20,105 nucleotides of DNA from a bacterium. GTDB taxonomy: Bacteria; Spirochaetota; UBA4802; UBA5550. Under the pieces are notes generated by a model. It saw only the letters and a list, made by a program, of their open reading frames with translations. It had not been told where the DNA came from and ran no database searches. The stretch covers positions 1 to 20,105 of the forward strand of contig JAAENB010001125.1 in NCBI GenBank assembly GCA_024224995.1. The letters run 5' to 3'. Below are positions 3,185-15,494 of the stretch, one piece after another. The position numbers and the translations under genes are program-made. The number at the start of each line of letters is the position of its first letter. Position 1 is the stretch's first letter.

Positions 3185-3904
3185 TTAACAATTATAAATG
3201 TCTTTTAATTCCCCCTGGGTTTTTTTCCCGGGAATGCCATCAACCGTTAAATCATAATCTTCCTGAAACTCTTTAACTGCGGCTTCGGTTATTGGGCCTT
3301 TGATCCCGTCAATGCGACCTGAATCATAACCCAGGTTATTTAAGCGGGCCTGGATACCGGAGATGGTATCGAGAGGATCGAGATGGCCGATTTTAAGCTC
3401 ATACTCGAAATCGGGTTCCGTACTTTCTTCTTTTGTCCATACTTTTAAAAAAGCGTCTCTTTCTCCGTCCAGAATTTCTTCCACTAATTCTCCTTTCTCC
3501 AGGTTACCTTCAAACTTTTTCTTTTTGTCGCCACCATCTCCACCCCCCGGCCTCTCAATGGTCCTCTTTTCATTCCCCTTACCAATAAATGTAATTTCGT
3601 ACTTAACAATTTTTTCTTCAATTCCGCCAGCCAGAAGGTCGAGTTTTAATTTCGCGTTTTCTTTACTCTTTTTTTTGTACCGGTATTTATTTCCGGGTTT
3701 ACAATCTTTTTCTTTTTTCTCCAATTCATCCTTAGAGGGAATATACAGCTTTTCCCCGGGATAAATAATATTTGGATCGGGATATTTTTTTTTGAAATCT
3801 TTATTTTTATCGTGGTCATAAATGGGTTCCCAGTTGTGAAAACCATGTTTTCGAGCAATTTTATGCAAGTAATCACCCTGTTCTATTTTATAATACTCTC
3901 CCAT
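3185..3904 (-). CDS. LysM and peptidoglycan-binding domain protein (spike-associated adaptor)
   Basis: A 239-residue protein without a signal peptide. LysM is at about 4-56 (YKIEQGDYLHKIARKHG ... YPGEKLYIP). The middle, about 70-165, is a low-complexity Lys/Glu/Gly-rich beta region resembling a degraded carboxypeptidase-regulatory-like domain. A PG_binding_1 domain is at about 175-239 (GHLDPLD, then IQARLNNLGYDSGRIDGIKGP and FQEDYDLTVDG). I recognise this LysM / beta / GHLDP.. / PG_binding_1 order from proteins encoded beside VgrG-like spikes in proteobacteria and myxobacteria; LysM proteins also sit next to the spike in Afp/PVC particles (Afp7 class). It begins 10 nt after the spike gene and precedes the lipase by 29 nt. 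Likely role: attach to the spike or tube and hold or position the effector at the cell wall. The role is inferred from family and context. Confidence 0.87.
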   Translation of the reverse strand: MGEYYKIEQGDYLHKIARKHGFHNWEPIYDHDKNKDFKKKYPDPNIIYPGEKLYIPSKDELEKKEKDCKPGNKYRYKKKSKENAKLKLDLLAGGIEEKIVKYEITFIGKGNEKRTIERPGGGDGGDKKKKFEGNLEKGELVEEILDGERDAFLKVWTKEESTEPDFEYELKIGHLDPLDTISGIQARLNNLGYDSGRIDGIKGPITEAAVKEFQEDYDLTVDGIPGKKTQGELKDIYNC

Positions 3905-3914
3905 AAATTATCTC

Positions 3915-5252
3915 CTATACATCCCACTCATCGGGATCAAGATTCGGAAAGGTAACTTTACAGCTATTGGGGTCATCAACTTCAACTTCCGCCTTTCCTT
4001 CCTTATTAAGTCTTCCTTTAATCTCTTTCCCGGAAGCTGTAGTTACAATATAACTTTCATTGGCAACAGGTTCGCCATCCTCTTCCTCAAGGGAAATTTC
4101 AAGGAATTTGGATTCTTTTTCTTTAACAACTTTACCTTCTTCCTTCTTCTTCTCCGGAGGCGGAGTCGCAGGACCGGCAGAAGCCACAGATTCCGCGGAG
4201 GTTTTCATAAGCCCTGTATTCTTCTCCACAAAGAAAAAAGTCTCAAACCCAACAAGGGGCACGAACTTATGCTTTACACTGGTGACAAAATACTTCCCGG
4301 AAAACTTTTCTCCCAGGGCTTTCAGGTCCAGCATGGTACCGGCTTTAACCTTGCAATTCCCGGCACATCGACCGGTAGATTTAATATACCGCATGGAGTT
4401 TGCGGTAATATACTCAAGCGCAGCCTTGTCCGCAGCGTTCTGATCTTTAACATTGGCATCGAGCAAAATGGCTTTGGCAGCGCCATAATTTTCTTTTGCG
4501 ATATCTCCGCCCAGAACATTATCACCAATCTTGAAGGTGATATCGTCGCACGTGGCTGTGCCAACAAGCGTCTCTTCCGGGCTTTTTGAGCCCCGTACTT
4601 CAACCTCGTCGATAAGTCTCCGGCAGGTAAGCCGGGGATCGAAGTCGAGAAGGGTTTTGCCCCATTCAAGCACAACATCACCTGAGGAGTTTGCCTCGGT
4701 CGGTTTTACGAACAATTTTTTTCCTTCGGCCCAGACCCGGCAATTATAGGAATTGGCAATAGTCATGATGTACTGTGCGTCTGTTAAGCCGCTTTGCAGG
4801 GTAAAGGGCTTTTCAACACCGATATCTTCAATATCGTGTTCCAGTTCTGCGGCATCGGCCAGTTGTTTGATAATATCGGCATCGGTCATTTCGGAAAAGG
4901 ATTGGGTTTTTCTTCCCCTGGCGAGACGGTGGAGAAAACTGTTTCCTTTGAAGGTAACGGCATCGTCGCTGTTTTTAACAAAATCGGGCATAATCCCCGT
5001 AATTTCACCGGTAATAACCTCAGTAAGGTCATCTTTGTATCCCAGTTCAATCGTCACTTCAGTACCTTCAGCCCAGTCAGTGCTGTCCGTGAGAGTCCGT
5101 TTGGCATCGTCGGCCATGCGGATATAAAAGATTGATACGGAATCGATTATCTCAATGATTATAATCGATTTTACCGCAACTTCCTGCTCCTGCTGGATTT
5201 TGCTCCCGTTCAGTTTAATAGAGAAGACCGGGGTAGGTTCGCTTTCGGACAT
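3915..5252 (-). CDS. Phage late control D / VgrG-like spike protein with C-terminal beta module
   Basis: A 445-residue protein. Residues about 1-345 match the phage late control gene D family (gp27-like hub of contractile tails and VgrG): an N-terminal beta domain (ELGYKDDL, VITGEITGI), the segment LARGRKTQSFSEMTDADIIK, then SGLTDAQYIMTIANSYNCRVW and a later SGKYFVTSVKHKF strand. A Pro/Lys/Glu linker (about 350-383) leads to a ~60-residue beta module (LEEEDGEPVANESY ... PNLDPDEWDV), a type often found on effector-carrying VgrG-like or PAAR-associated proteins. No gp5 OB-fold, beta-helix or PAAR tip is visible, so the spike tip must come from elsewhere. Start: a perfect AGGAGG lies 6 nt before the ATG, with a consensus promoter upstream. 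It is the first gene of a four-gene operon. The GC content looks higher than in the two distal genes. Confidence 0.87.
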   Translation of the reverse strand: MSESEPTPVFSIKLNGSKIQQEQEVAVKSIIIIEIIDSVSIFYIRMADDAKRTLTDSTDWAEGTEVTIELGYKDDLTEVITGEITGIMPDFVKNSDDAVTFKGNSFLHRLARGRKTQSFSEMTDADIIKQLADAAELEHDIEDIGVEKPFTLQSGLTDAQYIMTIANSYNCRVWAEGKKLFVKPTEANSSGDVVLEWGKTLLDFDPRLTCRRLIDEVEVRGSKSPEETLVGTATCDDITFKIGDNVLGGDIAKENYGAAKAILLDANVKDQNAADKAALEYITANSMRYIKSTGRCAGNCKVKAGTMLDLKALGEKFSGKYFVTSVKHKFVPLVGFETFFFVEKNTGLMKTSAESVASAGPATPPPEKKKEEGKVVKEKESKFLEISLEEEDGEPVANESYIVTTASGKEIKGRLNKEGKAEVEVDDPNSCKVTFPNLDPDEWDV

Positions 5253-8581: not shown

Positions 8582-9100
8582 TTAATTTTGCAGTTTTGAG
8601 CTGTTCTCTTCGGAAAGGACAAGACAGTCTATAACTGTTTTTACATGGAGAATAATAACCAGTAATATGTCTTCACGGACAGTATCGCTGTTTGCTTGCT
8701 GGCCGTCCCCGGCAAAACCAAGGATGAAATCCATTAATTCCGGCTGATTATTGTATTTTGTGAGAATATCCATCATATCGTCAGCGGAATCTTCATCCAG
8801 CTCTTCCATTTTTTCAAAGAGTTCAATATTTTTGTCCAGCTGGCTGTCCAGGGATTCGTTTTCTATTTTATTTTTACAACCGGTGGTTTCATTAAATATG
8901 TACCATGCTATAGCACCGCAAAAAATAAGCAAATCCCTTTCTTCATCGCTTGTTTCGTCTCCTTCAGCTTCATAAAGATAATTTACCAGGGGCTGCTGTT
9001 CAAGGTCCATTGCTTCAATAATGCCGTCAAAGGGGTTTTCATCTGACTGCTCAAGTTTCTCCAGGGCGTTATTTATATGATCTTCAGTTATTAGTGTCAT
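8582..9100 (-). CDS. Small acidic protein of unknown function
   Basis: A 172-residue, very Asp/Glu-rich protein that I do not recognise. It begins MTLITEDHINNALEKLEQ and appears all-helical, with several DE-rich turns (DETSDEERD, EELDEDSADD). It has one moderately hydrophobic helix (LLIFCGAIAWYIF, about 82-94) and another near the C-terminus (ILLVIILHVKTVIDCLV). Neither looks like a clear membrane span or signal peptide. AAGGA precedes the ATG by about 6 nt, and composition and helical periodicity support a real gene. It is monocistronic, between a hairpin at 8538-8563 and the divergent promoter region of the next gene. Acidic helical proteins of this size can be chaperones, inhibitors or DNA mimics, but nothing here picks one. 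Confidence 0.75.
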   Translation of the reverse strand: MTLITEDHINNALEKLEQSDENPFDGIIEAMDLEQQPLVNYLYEAEGDETSDEERDLLIFCGAIAWYIFNETTGCKNKIENESLDSQLDKNIELFEKMEELDEDSADDMMDILTKYNNQPELMDFILGFAGDGQQANSDTVREDILLVIILHVKTVIDCLVLSEENSSKLQN

Positions 9101-9229: not shown

Positions 9230-9341
9230 CGGAATGCAACCTATGCCCGGAGCGATGCCTCTGCGGGTTGTGAGGCTGTTTGAGCGAAGCGAGTTCCGAA
9301 CGTTCTGCGGAGGCATCGCTCCGGGCATAGGTTGCATTCCG
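9230..9341 (+). repeat. Long perfect hairpin with conserved loop (copy 1)
   Basis: A 32-bp perfect inverted repeat: left arm 9230-9261, right arm 9310-9341. On the plus strand pairing continues six more positions (9262-9267 with 9304-9309), three of them G.T wobbles. The loop core 9271-9298 (starts TGAGG, CTGTTTGAGC at 9275-9284, ends GCGAGTTCCG) recurs in the hairpin at 14148-14275, although the two stems are unrelated. The core contains GCGAAGC (9284-9290), a heptamer known to form an extremely stable DNA mini-hairpin. The stem is far longer than an intrinsic terminator and has no T tract. It lies between divergent genes, upstream of the promoter at 9488. Confidence 0.9.
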
Positions 9342-9428
9342 GGTTGATATACCTTATATATGGTCCGCTCTGCGGGTCAGCTGCTCTTAAGTAGGTGGAG
9401 GCGAAGCCCCCTTCACCCCCCTTCTCTT

Positions 9429-9448
9429 CGCGGCGCGGAAGCGCCGCG
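9429..9448. repeat. GC-rich hairpin with GGAA loop
   Basis: CGCGGCGC (9429-9436) and GCGCCGCG (9441-9448) form a perfect 8-bp all-GC stem around GGAA. Just upstream is a pyrimidine-rich GC block with a small GGC-GAA-GCC hairpin (9400-9408). It is strikingly more GC-rich than the flanking DNA and may belong to the same inserted element as the long hairpin at 9230-9341. No T tract follows on either strand. Confidence 0.6.
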
Positions 9449-9487
9449 TTACCCTGATCTTTACGGCTCAATACCGGGATTATATTC

Positions 9488-9516
9488 TTGACGGATTGGG
9501 CGATTTTTCGTATAAT
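9488..9516 (+). promoter_or_regulatory. Near-consensus sigma70 promoter
   Basis: TTGACG (9488-9493), exactly 17 bp, then TATAAT (9511-9516). This is followed by a short leader containing AGGAG (about 9536-9540) and the TTG start at 9549. Together these fix the transcription and translation start of the next gene. Confidence 0.8.
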
Positions 9517-9548
9517 ACGGTAAATCCGGAATAACAGGAGTAAAACCA

Positions 9549-11228
9549 TTGATCGAGAAAAACAAAGCCCAGAAAGCGCGAACAGCCATCCAGATTTTTA
9601 AAACCACTACCGATGCCCTGGCGCTGCGAGGATATTTTAGACCTTCGGGAAGATCGGGACAAACCCTCGCGTCGAGTCTGAAGATGTTGAGCCCGGAAAT
9701 TTACGGAACTATCAATGATCCGCGAACTATAGAGTTAAAGGGGCTGGGATACGTAATTGACCGTTTGCCCCGGGGAATAGAGGAATGCTCGCGAATTATT
9801 CTAACGGCACACGATGAGCTGGAACACACCACTTTTGAGAAGATCATTCCTCCCAAACGGAGGCGGACCTCTTACCGGGTGAGCAGCGATGAAATGTCCT
9901 TTGTAATAACCAGGGGCATGAGTGAGATTTATGATATTTTAACCCACCTGACCTTTCTTAATATAGAAGCCGAAAAAATAAAAAACCAGATGCGGGACAC
10001 ACGGGGGAAACTGATCGTTGAGTGGCAGAACCTGGAAAAAACTATCAAAAATGATATAACCACTGAAGCCGAGCTGGACAGAAGCCTGTGGAATCTCAGC
10101 ATACTCCTGGGCAGGTCTTTTCAGGAGACCAGGGACGCCTATTTGGAAATGGAAAAGTACCGGAAGGAGAAGAACAGCAACCGGGGCCTATTTAAGCTTA
10201 TTTATGGCCTGGGGATTCGGGCAGAGGAAGAAAGCAATGTGGTAGAAGGCAAAGGGCTTGTTTATTTTACACCGTCCTTGCGGGATATGATTGGCCGTCA
10301 TAAATACGGCAGGGACTGGGCCGATGCCATTATGGTCAAGATCCGAAAGCTGGGACTGGAAAACCGGCCGTTTCATATAATAAGCGCGAATATGCATAGT
10401 GTCATGAACGCCATATACGCGTACGCGGCACTGGAATCGGACCGTGGGGAAAAAATCCCTCATGATTTCTATGAGTTTATTCTAAAGAATAAAGACAAAT
10501 CGGGAATTATTCGAAAATTTGCCCGTGACCATGGGCTTCACGAGCTGCCGGATGAGTCCGGAACCTACATTGATTGCCAGGTAATTGATACAGCGGGTTT
10601 GGCGACTATTCCCTTTCATCCGCAGAGTAATTTTAACGCATCGGTATTTGAAAAAGAGAAGCCCGTACTCCTGGTAATGGATTACGCGTTTGGGGCACAG
10701 GCTTTTGAAGTTCTTGGGGAACTGCTCAGCCCCCTGGAGCTTGAAGACGAAGTAATTTCATTCTCCGTAAAGTCAATTTCCATTATGGGAAAAGCGGGCA
10801 TTCTGCCCGGCAAAAAGGGTGATATCATGTTGGCCACAGCGCACGTCTTTGAGGGAACTCCTCATAATTATATTTTCGATAATGACCTTAAAAGAGACGA
10901 TTTCGATAAATCCATAGATGTGTATAGCGGCCCAATCGTAACGGTCCTGGGAACCTCTCTACAGAATAAAGATGTATTAAAAAAGTTTCAGAGAACCAGC
11001 TGGAAGGCAGTGGGGCTTGAAATGGAAGGAGGCCACTACCAGCGGGCAATAAGCGCTTCAATTATCCGGGGCCATATTTCAGCGGATGTAAAAGTCCGGT
11101 ATGCCTACTATGCTTCGGATAACCCGATTATAAGCGGGCAAACCCTGGCCTCGGGCGGACTGGGAGACGAAGGAGTACGGCCAACATATATGATAACCAG
11201 GGTTATTCTTGAGAAGATCTTTTCTTGA
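9549..11228 (+). CDS. DUF6909-like protein with nucleoside-phosphorylase-like C-terminus
   Basis: A 559-residue protein starting at TTG, chosen because AGGAG lies 8 nt upstream and a near-consensus promoter precedes it. Residues about 1-230 are largely helical (SLKMLSPEIYG, YVIDRLPRGIEEC, RGMSEIYDILTHLTFL); I associate this pattern with proteins annotated DUF6909, from memory only. Residues about 270-559 look alpha/beta. IVTVLGTSLQNKD and GLEMEGGHYQRAI (Met492-Glu493-Gly494) resemble the ribose-binding Met-Glu motif of PNP/MTA nucleosidases, with the preceding Glu also present, and a final SGQTLASGG loop follows. It may therefore bind or cleave a nucleoside or nucleotide-like ligand, but this is inference. 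No membrane segments are seen. It converges on the SNF2 gene, with 38 bp between the stops. Confidence 0.85.
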   Translation: MIEKNKAQKARTAIQIFKTTTDALALRGYFRPSGRSGQTLASSLKMLSPEIYGTINDPRTIELKGLGYVIDRLPRGIEECSRIILTAHDELEHTTFEKIIPPKRRRTSYRVSSDEMSFVITRGMSEIYDILTHLTFLNIEAEKIKNQMRDTRGKLIVEWQNLEKTIKNDITTEAELDRSLWNLSILLGRSFQETRDAYLEMEKYRKEKNSNRGLFKLIYGLGIRAEEESNVVEGKGLVYFTPSLRDMIGRHKYGRDWADAIMVKIRKLGLENRPFHIISANMHSVMNAIYAYAALESDRGEKIPHDFYEFILKNKDKSGIIRKFARDHGLHELPDESGTYIDCQVIDTAGLATIPFHPQSNFNASVFEKEKPVLLVMDYAFGAQAFEVLGELLSPLELEDEVISFSVKSISIMGKAGILPGKKGDIMLATAHVFEGTPHNYIFDNDLKRDDFDKSIDVYSGPIVTVLGTSLQNKDVLKKFQRTSWKAVGLEMEGGHYQRAISASIIRGHISADVKVRYAYYASDNPIISGQTLASGGLGDEGVRPTYMITRVILEKIFS

Positions 11229-11266
11229 TTGTGCCCGGGAAATAAGTTACGCCTCTTCCCTTCTCA

Positions 11267-13801
11267 TTAATCAAACAGGTCCATGATATCGTTTGATGAT
11301 AAGGATTTGAAGAAGCCGCTTTCTTCGGTGATGAGTTCTTTAACCAGTTCCTTCTTCTTCTCCTGGAGCCGCAGGATTTTTTCTTCAACAGTGTTTTTAA
11401 CGATCATTTTATAGGCGATGACTTTATTTGTTTGCCCAATGCGGTGGCTCCGGTCAATGGCCTGTTGTTCAACAGCGGGATTCCACCAGGGATCGAAGAG
11501 GAAAACGTATTCGGCTTCAGTGAGGTTAATACCCACACCGCCTGCTTTGAGGCTGAGCAGGAAAACCTTCCTGTTTTGATCTTCCCTGAAGCGGATAATT
11601 TCCTCTTCCCTGTTGCGGGCAGCCCCGTCAATATAGGAGTAGGAGATTTTTTCTTTATCGAAATAGTTCCTCACAATAGCAAGAGAGCTGGTGAAGCTGG
11701 AGAAAATAAGCATTTTATGATCTTCCCGGATGATTTCATCGATCATGTCTTTCATCATGTCAAATTTACACGAAGGGGCATTCGCTTCATCTTTATAGAC
11801 CAATGAGGGGAACAGCGCGATTTGCCGAAGTTTTAACAGGGCGTCAAAAATATGTATGGTCGATTTATTAATCCCCTGCTCCCGGATCGTTTGTTCAATC
11901 GAATCCCGGTACCGGCGGCGGCACGATTCATACAGCTCAGCCTGGCGGGAGCCCATTTCAGCGTAGATAATGATCTCTTCTTTAGGAGGAAGATCCGGGG
12001 CGGCCTCTTCTTTCCGCCGCCGAAGGATAAAAGGATAGATGCGTTTTTTAAGCTGCTCAGCCGCGCCGGAGCTCCCGTGTTTTTCAATGGGCCTGGAATA
12101 GGTATTCGCGAAATCTTCCCGCGAGCCCAGCATGCCGGGATTAAGAAAGTCCATCTGGGACCAGAGCTCCCCGGTATTGTTTTCCACGGGAGTACCCGTA
12201 AGAGAAAGACGGTGACCGGAAAACAGGGCGCGCACACTCTTGAATATTTTGGATGAAGAATTTTTAATATACTGAGCCTCATCCAGGATAATATAATCGA
12301 ACCGCATGCCGGCAAAAAGATCGTGATCGTTTTTTAGGGTGTGGTAACTTACCAGGATGCAGTTGAACTGCTCCAGGTGTTCTTTTGTTTTAACGCGGCC
12401 GCTGCCGCTGTGACGGGTACAGGAGAGAGAAGGGGTGAATTTGTTTATTTCATTTTCCCAGTTCGCCATGGTAATAACCGGGAGAACAATGAGCGATACA
12501 AAAGGGACTTTTTCTACCAGGGCTTTTTCTTTTAGAGCCTGCAAAAAGGCCAGGGTTTGAACGGTTTTACCCAGGCCCATATCGTCGGCAAGGCAGCCGT
12601 TCAGGTCGTGCTCATGAAGGAAGCGGAGCCAGTTGTACCCGGCATACTGGTAAGGACGGAGATTTCCCTTAAAGTTCAGGGGCAGGGGATATGTATCACG
12701 GTGCCCGTTTGCCTTGAGTTTTTGAGAAATACGCTTTGCCCGGGCCAGGGCCGGTTCATCTTTGTTAATGATATCATCGTAAAGGGAATCAATAAGATTA
12801 AGATCGAGAATGGAGACTTTCATAAAGCCGCTGGAATTCATGCCCTGTTTCACCAGTTTTTCAATAGAACGGATCTCTTCTTTTTCAGGAACAACAAGAG
12901 AGTCCCCAACGCGCACAACACCTTTTTGTAAAAAAGAGCTATTAATATCTACGGAGCTTTCGCTGCCATTGGGAGACACATACCGGGCATCCAGGGAGAG
13001 CCAGTTTATTTCCGAAGAGGCCCTGAAAGCAAAGGAGCCTTCGCTGTGGGTAACCCGGTGCCGCCTGCCTTTCAGCCGGATCTCAATCTCAGTTTGAGAA
13101 ATGGGCTCGCTATAGCGGGTCATAAATTGCCGCAGACTAAGGGGAACCGCGTAATCGTCATGGGGGAAATTCTCATGGAATTTCGCGGAGCCGGGATTCA
13201 CCCGGGATATTTTTGAAAAGATTTCGTCGAGGCGTTTTTTTGTAGTCCATTCCAGTTCCCGGTCCCGTTTAATATAGACCGGAGGCCTGTTTTGTTCTTT
13301 TGACGGTTTTACGAAAACCATGTCGTCCCGGTCATTGATGGAAACCCGGGTTTTGTTGTACTTGAAAAAGAGATTCACCGTAAGCCCCTGCTTGCGCTGA
13401 TCCATTTCAATGAAGGGGAGGGGCGCAACCGAAAGGATCTCCGGAGAGCGGCCGCGGGAAACCGGGCGGTTTGCCCGGCCGGGGGGAGGTTTGTTTTCCG
13501 GGTTTTTAACGGGAGCGGGTTTTTTCTTTTGCCGGACGAAGGCAACCAGGGCTTCACCAATGTGGACGCAAACGCGCGGCGTGGAACAGGAACAGGTAAC
13601 GTTAGAGAACATGCCCTGGGGATTCAGCCGGATCTCAACAATATAGGGATAAATATCATCACCCTGAACTTCCGATTGAATGGAATTACCGAAGAGCTCG
13701 GTTTTTTTAACGTGCCCCATTTGCACTCCGTCAACGGCCTGGTAATATAATTCATCTCCAATAAATGAACGAATTTTTGGTATGGTTATGGATTGGGTCA
13801 T
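11267..13801 (-). CDS. SWIM zinc-finger SNF2/Swi2 family DNA helicase/translocase
   Basis: An 844-residue protein. The N-terminus carries a SWIM zinc-binding motif, Cys70-x-Cys72-x5-Cys78-x-His80, then a Pro/Lys/Arg-rich linker (about 90-125) and a beta-rich bacterial SNF2-associated region (about 125-370). The SNF2 motor follows: Walker A DDMGLGKT (406-413), DEAQ box (507-510), SLTGTPVEN (533-541), and in the second RecA lobe the signature FDPWWNPAVEQQAIDRSHRIGQT (from 769) with the arginine finger. The length and order are those of stand-alone bacterial SNF2 ATPases (HepA/SNF2 class), expected to translocate on DNA and remodel protein-DNA or RNA polymerase complexes. No nuclease or methylase partner is adjacent. 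No clear Shine-Dalgarno precedes the ATG. Upstream DNA holds two giant hairpins. Confidence 0.95.
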   Translation of the reverse strand: MTQSITIPKIRSFIGDELYYQAVDGVQMGHVKKTELFGNSIQSEVQGDDIYPYIVEIRLNPQGMFSNVTCSCSTPRVCVHIGEALVAFVRQKKKPAPVKNPENKPPPGRANRPVSRGRSPEILSVAPLPFIEMDQRKQGLTVNLFFKYNKTRVSINDRDDMVFVKPSKEQNRPPVYIKRDRELEWTTKKRLDEIFSKISRVNPGSAKFHENFPHDDYAVPLSLRQFMTRYSEPISQTEIEIRLKGRRHRVTHSEGSFAFRASSEINWLSLDARYVSPNGSESSVDINSSFLQKGVVRVGDSLVVPEKEEIRSIEKLVKQGMNSSGFMKVSILDLNLIDSLYDDIINKDEPALARAKRISQKLKANGHRDTYPLPLNFKGNLRPYQYAGYNWLRFLHEHDLNGCLADDMGLGKTVQTLAFLQALKEKALVEKVPFVSLIVLPVITMANWENEINKFTPSLSCTRHSGSGRVKTKEHLEQFNCILVSYHTLKNDHDLFAGMRFDYIILDEAQYIKNSSSKIFKSVRALFSGHRLSLTGTPVENNTGELWSQMDFLNPGMLGSREDFANTYSRPIEKHGSSGAAEQLKKRIYPFILRRRKEEAAPDLPPKEEIIIYAEMGSRQAELYESCRRRYRDSIEQTIREQGINKSTIHIFDALLKLRQIALFPSLVYKDEANAPSCKFDMMKDMIDEIIREDHKMLIFSSFTSSLAIVRNYFDKEKISYSYIDGAARNREEEIIRFREDQNRKVFLLSLKAGGVGINLTEAEYVFLFDPWWNPAVEQQAIDRSHRIGQTNKVIAYKMIVKNTVEEKILRLQEKKKELVKELITEESGFFKSLSSNDIMDLFD

Positions 13802-13935
13802 TTTGTATAATCTACTCGTGATATAAATTTATATAGAAGCAAATTTGATTAATAGCATACTCATGTCAAGGAAATTAGTTCTTTTGAGACTACTCGCCGG
13901 GGGTACGCCTTGTGTGCGATGTTGTTGGCGTGTGC

Positions 13936-14090
13936 GGGAATGAGTCCCCGCGAGGGATGCGGGGGGCGGCCCCTGCTTTCCTCCACCCTGGTGAAAATCC
14001 GTCCTGGATTGCACCAGGGCAGGACCGTCCGTGGTCCTTGTTCCGGAAAGCAGGGGCCGCACCCCGCACCCCTCGCAGGGACTCATTCCC
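13936..14090. repeat. Long palindrome with two internal hairpins (T-shaped fold)
   Basis: Arms 13936-13981 and 14045-14090 are inverted repeats of 46 bp with three mismatches (13949/14077, 13957/14069, 13965/14061); the first two are G.T wobbles on the minus strand. The 63-nt interior folds again: CCCTGGTG (13986-13993) with CACCAGGG (14012-14019), capped by AATCC/GGATT (13996-14000/14006-14010), and AGGACC (14021-14026) with GGTCCT (14033-14038). The result is a long stem topped by two side arms, like a viral inverted terminal repeat in shape. The loop does not match the one at 9271-9298. Open frames on both strands here are artefacts of the palindrome. Confidence 0.88.
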
Positions 14091-14147
14091 TGATGCTGTT
14101 GTAAAACGCACAAAATGCATTCGGTAAAATGGGAGGGAAACATTATT

Positions 14148-14275
14148 TGTTGTGACAGTGACACCCTCGCGGGGGGCGTACCCCTCTTCAGAAGGTGAGG
14201 ACTGTTTGAGCAACGCGAGTTCCGCAGCCTTCTGAAGAGGGGTACGCTCCCCGCGAGGGTGTCACTGTCACAACA
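14148..14275 (+). repeat. Long hairpin with conserved loop (copy 2)
   Basis: Arms 14148-14195 and 14228-14275 form a 48-bp inverted repeat with one exception, 14175/14248, which is a G.T wobble on the plus strand. The 32-nt loop starts with a core (14196-14224) matching 9271-9298 at all but two bases and one inserted A, in the same orientation. The mini-hairpin position reads GCAACGC (14210-14216), keeping the GC/GC pairs around a changed three-base loop. The stem sequence is unrelated to copy 1. It lies between the ankyrin gene stop and the SNF2 gene start (both minus strand), 58 bp from the palindrome at 13936-14090. Confidence 0.92.
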
Positions 14276-14378: not shown

Positions 14379-15494
14379 TTACCTCCGCGCTCCCGCCTTT
14401 TCTAAAATTTCCACAATTTCAAAATTGCCCAGGTTTTTCGCCATTTTCAGGGCGGTATTCCCGCTGCTGTTCCGGAAGCTGACGTTCGCGCCGTTGGCAA
14501 TGAGCAAACGGGTGATATCCGCGTAGCCTCTGAATGAGGCGATAATTAACGCGGTATTGCCAATGTTGTCCTTAGCGTTAATGTGGGCGCCTTTGACAAT
14601 GAGCAAGCGGACAATCTCGATCTTGCCGGAAAAAACACCGTCAATTAAAACGGTTTTTCCGCTGGAGGCCCTGCTTTTAATGTCGGCGCCGTTTTTAATA
14701 AGGAGTTTTACTATAGCGGTGTGACCTTTGTAGGCGGCAAAGTGAAGCGCGGTGTCGCCGTCTTTGGTTTTGGCTTTTACATCAACTCCTTTGTTAATGA
14801 AGAATTGCACAAGACCGGTTTTGCCGGAATGAACCGCGGTCATTAAAACGTTTTTTCCAAAGCGGTTTTCTGCTTTAATATCCGCGCCCTTTTCCAGCAG
14901 CAGTTTCGCCACGGGCAGGCTTCCCACGGCAGCGGCGATTAAAAGCGGAGTTCGCGCGGAGGAATCTTTCGCGTTAACGTCGAGCCCTTTGCTGATTAAA
15001 TAGTCAACAGTTTTAGTATTGCCCGAAGCCGCGCCGTTTAGTAAGGCAGTGGTGCCGTTATTGGTCCGGGCATCAATGTCGGCGCCTTTTTTTACCAGCA
15101 ATTGAACCAGGCCCGGCTTTCCGGAACGGGCCGCGCTGAGTAAGGGGGTAAGCCCCCGGCTGGTGGCGGCGTTAATGTCGGCTCTTTTTTTAAGCAGCAG
15201 TTTTACCACGGCAGTTTGCCCCCTGCCCGAAGCGAAGATGAGAGCGGTCATACTTTTGTAGGTGATATCGACATCGACCCCTGCTTTCATGAATTTCTTT
15301 ATGGCAGCCATATCACCATTACCACATGCCGATATGAAGTTATAAGCGGTCCCTTTTTTGGCAGAAAGCTCCGGCAGAGTTCCGGGCACGGCAGAAAGAA
15401 GCAAAATCGCAACGGCAAAAATTATTTTTGGAATAAGTGGATTTGTTGACGATTTTGATGATTTATTTCTTGTTTTTTGTGTAGAATAGCTCAT
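14379..15494 (-). CDS. Exported or membrane-anchored ankyrin-repeat protein
   Basis: A 371-residue protein. The N-terminus is basic and Ser-rich (1-22), followed by a hydrophobic segment (about 23-38, IIFAVAILLLSAVPG) that acts as a signal peptide or N-terminal anchor. From about 46 to the end there are ten 33-residue ankyrin repeats with the usual GxTALxxAAxxGxxxxVxLLLxxGADIxA pattern; several diverge at the TPL position (KNVLMTA, KTVLIDG). No catalytic domain is present, so it is a protein-binding scaffold, probably periplasmic. The ATG is preceded by GAGGA at 5-nt spacing. It is transcribed alone from a likely promoter at 15546-15574. A heptamer repeat and giant hairpins follow it. The partner is unknown; ankyrin proteins can be immunity proteins or inhibitors, but no effector gene is adjacent. 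Confidence 0.92.
   Translation of the reverse strand: MSYSTQKTRNKSSKSSTNPLIPKIIFAVAILLLSAVPGTLPELSAKKGTAYNFISACGNGDMAAIKKFMKAGVDVDITYKSMTALIFASGRGQTAVVKLLLKKRADINAATSRGLTPLLSAARSGKPGLVQLLVKKGADIDARTNNGTTALLNGAASGNTKTVDYLISKGLDVNAKDSSARTPLLIAAAVGSLPVAKLLLEKGADIKAENRFGKNVLMTAVHSGKTGLVQFFINKGVDVKAKTKDGDTALHFAAYKGHTAIVKLLIKNGADIKSRASSGKTVLIDGVFSGKIEIVRLLIVKGAHINAKDNIGNTALIIASFRGYADITRLLIANGANVSFRNSSGNTALKMAKNLGNFEIVEILEKAGARR

Follow-up and report, generated by a model that had tools for sequence, protein, structure and literature searches.

Two giant hairpins of a spirochaete contig belong to a cross-phylum family of dispersed repeats with a conserved tip

The 20,105-nucleotide contig JAAENB010001125.1 of a bacterium assigned to the Spirochaetota (the whole of which is called the window below) carries two giant hairpins whose unrelated stems enclose nearly the same loop. 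Here we report that these hairpins belong to a real, cross-phylum family of dispersed repeats in which the tip is conserved and the stems are inherited and change in compensation. With modest confidence, we lean towards the view that each is one copy of a dispersed repeat, widespread and non-autonomous, whose active form is a folded single strand. On this account, the strand carrying the core would fold into a long imperfect hairpin, the tip of which (GC-GNA-GC with tandem G.A pairs) would present TGTTTGAGCGNAGCGAGTT to a trans-acting factor that reads it, while the stem would need only to pair and hence could drift through compensatory changes. A second module, located about 65 nt further 3' in many lineages, would form an H-type pseudoknot with a pyrimidine loop that could make a major-groove triple helix. 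Copies, single or in divergent pairs with their 3' ends pointing outward, would amplify in a few genomes and come to lie mostly in intergenic gaps, often where two genes converge, and their apical modules would be exchanged, probably by gene conversion. That a protein recognizes the tip and that the repeat spreads as single-stranded DNA by means of an enzyme are the parts of this account that we infer.

A loop core shared by two hairpins and several phyla

Three local inverted repeats, each long and almost perfect, emerged from a repeat search of the window; two of them are the hairpins (all parts read on the + strand). Hairpin 1 (9230-9341, 112 nt in total) consists of a 35-nt left arm (9230..9264) that is 97% complementary to the right arm (9307..9341), the two being separated by 42 nt, while hairpin 2 (14148-14275, 128 nt) has a 48-nt left arm (14148..14195) that is 98% complementary to its right arm (14228..14275) across 32 nt. 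The initial annotation was right that both hairpins exist, although it gave the stem of hairpin 1 as 32 bp instead of 35 nt. Its description of the loop cores (9271-9298 and 14196-14224) as differing by two substitutions, now seen as GAA against AAC, and one inserted A is confirmed, and so is the lack of kinship between the stems of hairpins 1 and 2, for which the repeat search gave no mutual similarity within the window. The pattern CTGTTTGAGC-N3-GCGAGTTCCG occurs exactly twice in the window, starting at 9276 and 14202 and both times on the + strand, as CTGTTTGAGC-GAA-GCGAGTTCCG in hairpin 1 (9276..9298) and as CTGTTTGAGC-AAC-GCGAGTTCCG in hairpin 2 (14202..14224). Allowing up to three mismatches, CTGTTTGAGCNNNGCGAGTTCCG found two matches in the window versus none in 100 dinucleotide shuffles. 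Compared with shuffled sequences, hairpins 1 and 2 fold with z-scores of -12.6 and -16.6 as DNA, and of -13.6 and -17.1 as RNA.

Beyond the window, the exact core pattern was present in at least 120 stretches in a contig scan with one genome per species, against a chance expectation of about 0.5 matches (20 fixed bases in 257 Gb, by our own arithmetic). Judged by record titles, the family reaches at least seven phyla, Lentisphaerae not counted; the titles among the matches listed include Lachnospiraceae, Bacteroidales, betaproteobacteria, gammaproteobacteria, Desulfobacterales, Sulfurimonas, Nitrospirales, Saccharibacteria and Parcubacteria, as well as one Lentisphaerae record. Twenty whole genomes, picked because they bear the core, gave 177 matches with up to two mismatches (1-29 per genome) versus 2 for the reversed pattern. 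The occurrence of the family is patchy: few genomes of even, phylum-wide samples hold the exact core, and its distribution is clumped (2 of 249 Pseudomonadota, with the CC form of the pattern, 11 of 249 Bacillota and 6 of 247 Bacteroidota), these counts including the centre genome each time and, by requiring an exact match, missing diverged copies. Searches of plasmids and phages using the window, Iodobacter or viral copies returned few matches. The many copies with differing stems and one loop recovered by searching genomes with the core bear out the initial suggestion of a dispersed element family.

Stems that drift while paired around a constant tip

The genome loci and the window together provided 125 core copies, 117 of them with distinct flanks. 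The true arms of these copies form duplexes with a mean energy of -38.9 kcal/mol, compared with -20.4 kcal/mol for permuted arms, and 85 of the 117 lie beyond the 5% threshold of the permuted set. The copies do not share one stem: stem sequences vary widely, and the copies in genomes mostly have arms of unrelated sequence. Flanking inverted repeats accompany the core in these 85 copies, but are missing from many viral stretches: a shorter pattern (16 fixed bases) matched 107 stretches of viral contigs, only 28 of which reach an arm score of at least 8, and many of those below this score are one repeated leader-like sequence or coding-like matches, as 16 fixed bases predict. In enterococcal plasmids typed as Inc18, a 19-nt core (L340:3147-3165 and L341:2600-2618) lies about 175-180 nt upstream of a gene annotated as 'primase C-terminal domain'; these cores could be due to chance, and similar leader-like copies without arms occur in viral contigs.

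The history of the two window stems is recorded in a 3-kb contig titled Lentisphaerae (JAAEMX010000089.1, here L176), which is bounded by the repeat and carries three cores and both stem types of the window. Copies 1 and 3 of L176 are homologous to hairpin 1, with similarity extending beyond the stem into about 45 nt of the 5' flank (copy 1) or some of the 3' flank (copy 3), and copy 2, which is divergent from copy 1 and about 213 bp away from it, is homologous to the inner part of hairpin 2. Between hairpin 1 and copy 3, 39 of 49 base pairs are the same, 4 have changed on one side, 5 are compensatory and 1 is broken, and a 4-nt insertion is matched in both arms; between the inner part of hairpin 2 and copy 2, the 29 pairs divide into 23 that are the same, 2 one-sided and 4 compensatory, with none broken. 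Stem and loop are therefore copied together, after which the stem drifts but stays paired. The initial annotation had reasoned that copying would carry the stem, so that each site must either rebuild its stem or be under selection for the loop alone; this argument falls, since each stem has its own homologue with compensatory changes. The Lentisphaerae label of L176 may be a binning error, given its 3-kb length, the repeat at its boundaries and the fact that the DUF6909 protein encoded in the window had 0 matches in 145 sampled genomes of that phylum. By the same result, the window is probably not from that phylum; among the best 120 protein matches, the relatives that bear names are mostly MAGs of Spirochaetota and Desulfobacterota.

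These comparisons bear directly on the idea that template switching around a selected loop generates each stem on the spot, giving stem and loop separate origins. The near-perfect and mutually unrelated arms of the window are what such a process would leave, and a copy on a Butyrivibrio plasmid (L344:2910-3159) sits, by eye, inside a much longer unrelated hairpin with an arm of tens of bp and an extra small hairpin beside the core. However, the homologues of both window stems in L176, with their compensatory changes, and the flank similarity of hairpin 1 already largely contradict local origin, which we consider the least credible of the explanations weighed here.

The 19-nt tip signature shows a precise pattern of constraint. 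Its three variable bases read GNA in 102 of the 117 copies (GAA in 62, GTA in 26, GCA in 12 and GGA in 2), while the 15 others read AAA (6), AAC (2), ACA (2) and, once each, ATA, CCA, ACG, ACC and GAC. All four middle bases thus occur within GC-GNA-GC, in line with the earlier observation that the GC/GC pairs are kept where the three-base loop differs, and GNA with a free middle base is the signature of the d(GCGNAGC) mini-hairpin. Tandem G.A pairs are possible between the flanking GA/GA bases. One GAGC/GCGA unit has been gained jointly on both sides in four Iodobacter copies (L346, L348, L352 and L364), and two more (L357 and L365) carry uneven variants of this extension.

The mismatches within the stems differ between the strands. 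In 115 stems, G.T mismatches outnumber A.C (183 vs 107) and G.A outnumber C.T (329 vs 101), the corresponding figures for permuted arms being 1272/1203 and 1790/958, and the core strand is therefore likely the folded one; the significance of the test is overstated, since 936 of 1170 permuted arms also satisfied the permissive stem finder and kinship among the copies was disregarded. A strand-specific fold is in this sense statistically supported, and it suggests that the core strand is the one that folds. To this extent the initial interpretation is supported; the HUH-type partner that it proposed is not, as set out below.

A second module and the question of DNA or RNA

In about 40% of the copies (84 of 206), a hairpin whose left arm is pyrimidine-rich and at least 10 bp long lies within 220 nt 3' of the core, a count made without a shuffled control; in 67 of the 70 copies listed, this module starts 59-83 nt past the core. 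It is probably better read as an H-type pseudoknot, in which the loop of the hairpin pairs with a strand lying ahead of the pyrimidine run (as in CGGCC/GGCCG, TCGCC/GGCGA, ACGGG/CCCGT and CTTGACC/GGTCAAG) and the run itself matches the 3' purine strand in parallel orientation (CTTTTTCTCTTT with GAAAAAGAGAAA, and TTTCTTTT with AAAGAAAA). Both features are statistically supported: among 97 candidates, which comprise many close relatives and a few false cases such as L442, a pseudoknot helix of at least 5 bp is found in 63 (29.5% with shuffled partners) and a triple match of at least 7 in 45 (11.9% when shuffled). These counts indicate that the module is probably a covarying pseudoknot with triple-helix potential; the analysis also covered an alignment of 35 second modules. 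The same module stands without the core in Paraburkholderia (in 38 to at least 40 places per replicon), Burkholderia, Pasteurella and Aeromonas, and in the four coreless cases inspected the upstream hairpin-like region carries other loops. In Proteobacteria, the betaproteobacterial copies (L133, L165 and others) often seem, by eye, to have a third small G+C-rich hairpin 3' of the pseudoknot.

Such a fold raises the alternative that the selected form is RNA: each copy would encode a structured noncoding RNA, made of the long hairpin and a triple-helix pseudoknot that protects its 3' end, and the many copies would be those of a mobile or selfish RNA gene. The strand-specific mismatches fit an RNA, the covarying H-type pseudoknot with a parallel pyrimidine loop is a fold known from RNAs, and six copies in an array of genome G905 have a sharp 3' boundary at the pseudoknot end. 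The orientation of neighbouring genes argues the other way: in a tally relative to the core strand, 37 copies are antisense to both tandem neighbours and 24 are sense, alongside 41 in convergent and 8 in divergent gaps, 39 at locus edges, 7 far from genes and 5 inside open reading frames (ORFs). These counts do not support an element at the 3' end of mRNAs that is read in sense. Moreover, a search of the window and 30 relatives against Rfam gave no match above the gathering score on the element (the sole match, sRNA-Xcc1 in L087, lies about 3.4 kb off the core), and the copies in the window lack the pseudoknot, the Bacillota loci having yielded only the false candidate L442. We therefore regard an RNA as unlikely to be the selected form, although it is the strongest of the competing explanations to a folded, dispersed DNA repeat.

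Siting, exchange and the search for a partner

Copies of the repeat are patchy and largely intergenic. As judged with a simple ORF caller, gaps between convergent genes make up 30 of 84 intergenic gaps that contain a core versus 37 of 261 control gaps (p = 5e-5), and divergent gaps 5 of 84 versus 60 of 261 (p = 3e-4). Pairs of cores less than 700 bp apart are overwhelmingly divergent (21 of 25, with 3 tandem and 1 convergent), and seven of the divergent pairs are spaced by 164-177 bp.

Nine Iodobacter genomes, in each of which 40 candidates were scored, had 40-45 matches to a core-region query, mostly belonging to an element of about 300 bp. At one orthologous site, the element is present in three genomes (G003, G166 and G167), while five others (G002, G165, G168, G170 and G171) span both flanks with no element match in between; in G002, which was inspected base by base together with G171, the flanks lie 143 bp apart rather than 473, and in G169 only the right flank was found. 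This presence and absence gives no direction and is compatible with gain or loss. The apical module also differs at this site, G003 having the core and G166 and G167 other loops, and in G168 the core occurs on two unrelated apical stems within the same outer element. Both observations are most simply explained if copies convert one another. By eye, the ends of some Iodobacter copies look inverted.

Several classes of repeats share some of these properties. Repetitive extragenic palindromic (REP) sequences, BIMEs and REPINs are palindromes of 20-40 bp tagged with GTAG and CGTC, a conserved tetranucleotide at the foot (PMC3733652, PMC8266576). The present family resembles them in being made of dispersed palindromes that are patchy across phyla, in forming inverted dimers (21 of 25 close pairs are divergent), often with unlike halves, and in having stem and loop variants within families. 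It differs in that the loop is conserved rather than a foot tag, that a pseudoknot module may follow and that the window hairpins measure 112 and 128 nt against the 20-40 bp of REPs; at both feet of each window hairpin, the adjoining 12 nt contain neither GTAG nor CGTC. Like miniature inverted-repeat transposable elements (MITEs), the repeat is non-autonomous and multi-copy, but neither a family-wide terminal repeat nor a parent transposon is established, and the element missing from the Iodobacter site in five genomes comes without a defined target duplication or parent. The element thus behaves like REP- or MITE-type repeats but lacks the REP hallmarks tested, foot tag and length. MRSC-65-2, one of the 'mobile/repeat sequence candidates' and compared by its description only, resembles the family in its single long covarying stem, its occurrence across diverse phyla (with more than 20,000 representatives), its dozens of copies in a genome and a possible action as DNA; the conserved repeat reported for it, however, is UYCCGG, and the sections consulted mention no pseudoknot (PMC11109978). 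Intrastrand triplex motifs are reported as abundant, and the pyrimidine run of the second module could form a hairpin triple helix of this kind, whereas the characterized TMECO is G/C-rich and the available part of that report describes no upstream hairpin with a conserved loop and no pseudoknot helix (PMC4666352). Searching the open-access literature with the literal core sequence or by keyword, we found no relevant paper on this element; the keywords led to the REP, triplex and MRSC reports cited above.

The likeness to REPs raises the possibility that the hairpins serve IS200/IS605-type HUH enzymes (RAYT/TnpA-REP) as long, REP-like substrates, which would account for the inverted pairs (some with unlike halves), the high, patchy copy number and the intergenic siting, all matching REPs as described in PMC3733652. 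The absence of GTAG or CGTC within 12 nt outside the feet of the window hairpins and of a lagging-strand bias make this reading improbable, as does the distribution of the Y1 transposase PF01797, found in only 11 of 20 core-bearing genomes (10 above the cut-off) versus 5 of 14 controls, with the core in none of the 20 Y1 loci examined. Nor do these figures support the HUH-type partner of the initial annotation. TnpB (PF07282) occurs in 4 of 29 core-bearing genomes versus 6 of 14 controls; accordingly, we rejected the Y1 transposase and TnpB as universal partners, and with a presence in only 4 of 29 also the notion that the repeat is a TnpB reRNA scaffold. The Xer tyrosine recombinase is, to our knowledge, near-universal.

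An arrangement of a different kind is seen in G905 (L494-L497), where six copies in the same orientation, spaced by 1.1-2.6 kb with small modules in between (AAA ATPases with DUF4143 or DUF234, helix-turn-helix (HTH) proteins, a Gp49/HTH pair and Fic), resemble a cassette array. Three genes there end 3 bp after the repeat. This array speaks for reading the hairpins as integron-like recombination sites of the attC kind that bound gene cassettes. Nevertheless, other copies of the same genome sit among RecN-, CoaBC- and DnaN-like, housekeeping-looking genes (named by eye), and no integrase was found among the 10 array proteins scanned. Integron attC sites conserve the base of the stem; here the loop is conserved, and the GTTRRRY-like stretches of G905 are internal rather than basal (by eye). 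An integron-like role is, on balance, very improbable.

To return to the folded, non-autonomous DNA repeat that we favour, a number of results weigh against it. Neither a dedicated enzyme nor an autonomous copy emerged from profile searches and ORF comparison, the PF01797 and PF07282 counts given above being part of this outcome. When nearby ORFs were compared all against all, no clear partner emerged (several of the largest of the 40 clusters listed overlap the repeat itself, and the second-largest, from 10 loci, remained without identification), and the ten ORFs lying between neighbouring copies look ordinary (TssF, DnaA, RsmB, a zinc peptidase, a flavin oxidoreductase, radical SAM, LysR, AGS_C, Fe-ADH and a zinc ribbon); a composite transposon was rejected, as Pfam found no transposase among them. 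Counted by hand against GC skew, 24 of 66 copies are co-directional with replication in three Iodobacter chromosomes (11/33, 6/18 and 7/15, with 2 boundary copies dropped) and 7 of 13 in the Nitrospirales chromosome G010 (1 dropped), a bias that is weak in the former, absent in the latter and not consistent. On its own, the 38-nt tip consensus shows no predicted gain in stability over shuffles (z = 0.01 as DNA and -1.13 as RNA), and the strand test carries the permissive stem finder and non-independent copies described above. A pseudoknot with a triple helix is a fold typical of RNA, and the candidate scan found no pseudoknot or triple candidate beside the window copies. Some exact-core matches look like chance coding sequence (L116 in Nocardia, L145 and L216 in Bradyrhizobium, the latter two inside long ORFs). 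Finally, hairpin 1 itself lies in a divergent gap, counter to the preference of the family, between ORF 8582-9100 (- strand) and ORF 9549-11228 (+ strand, DUF6909).

Hairpin 2 is placed between an SNF2 ORF (11267-13801, - strand) and an ankyrin ORF (14379-15494, - strand), 4.9 kb from hairpin 1 and in the same direction; ORFs of 102-111 amino acids that overlap the window repeats were treated as spurious. A third giant hairpin (13936-14090; 46-nt arms, 93%, with a 63-nt loop) adjoins hairpin 2 and has an unrelated loop, 20 nt of which had no exact copy in viral contigs or in 529 loci. The flank of hairpin 1 had no match in viral contigs. Elsewhere, positions 3185-5252 of the window perhaps hold a tail-like cluster, given a peptidoglycan-binding protein and a match to a phage baseplate hub that is weak and falls below the cut-off.

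The family may represent a kind of mobile structured nucleic acid that has not been described before and spans at least seven phyla, in which a sequence-free stem presents a shared GNA/tandem-G.A tip, often with a triple-helix pseudoknot, and which moves or acts single-stranded via a conserved host factor and not a dedicated transposase; we offer this broader proposal only tentatively. Known REP-type palindromes are tied to a foot tag and partly to a transposase, whereas here it is the tip of the fold that is conserved between phyla, the stem being free as long as it pairs. Such conservation predicts a factor that reads the tip, and would provide a handle on how repeats without a transposase spread. 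The linked pseudoknot, whose third strand covaries, would be unusual for genomic repeats, and makes the question of whether the element acts as DNA or RNA a testable one.

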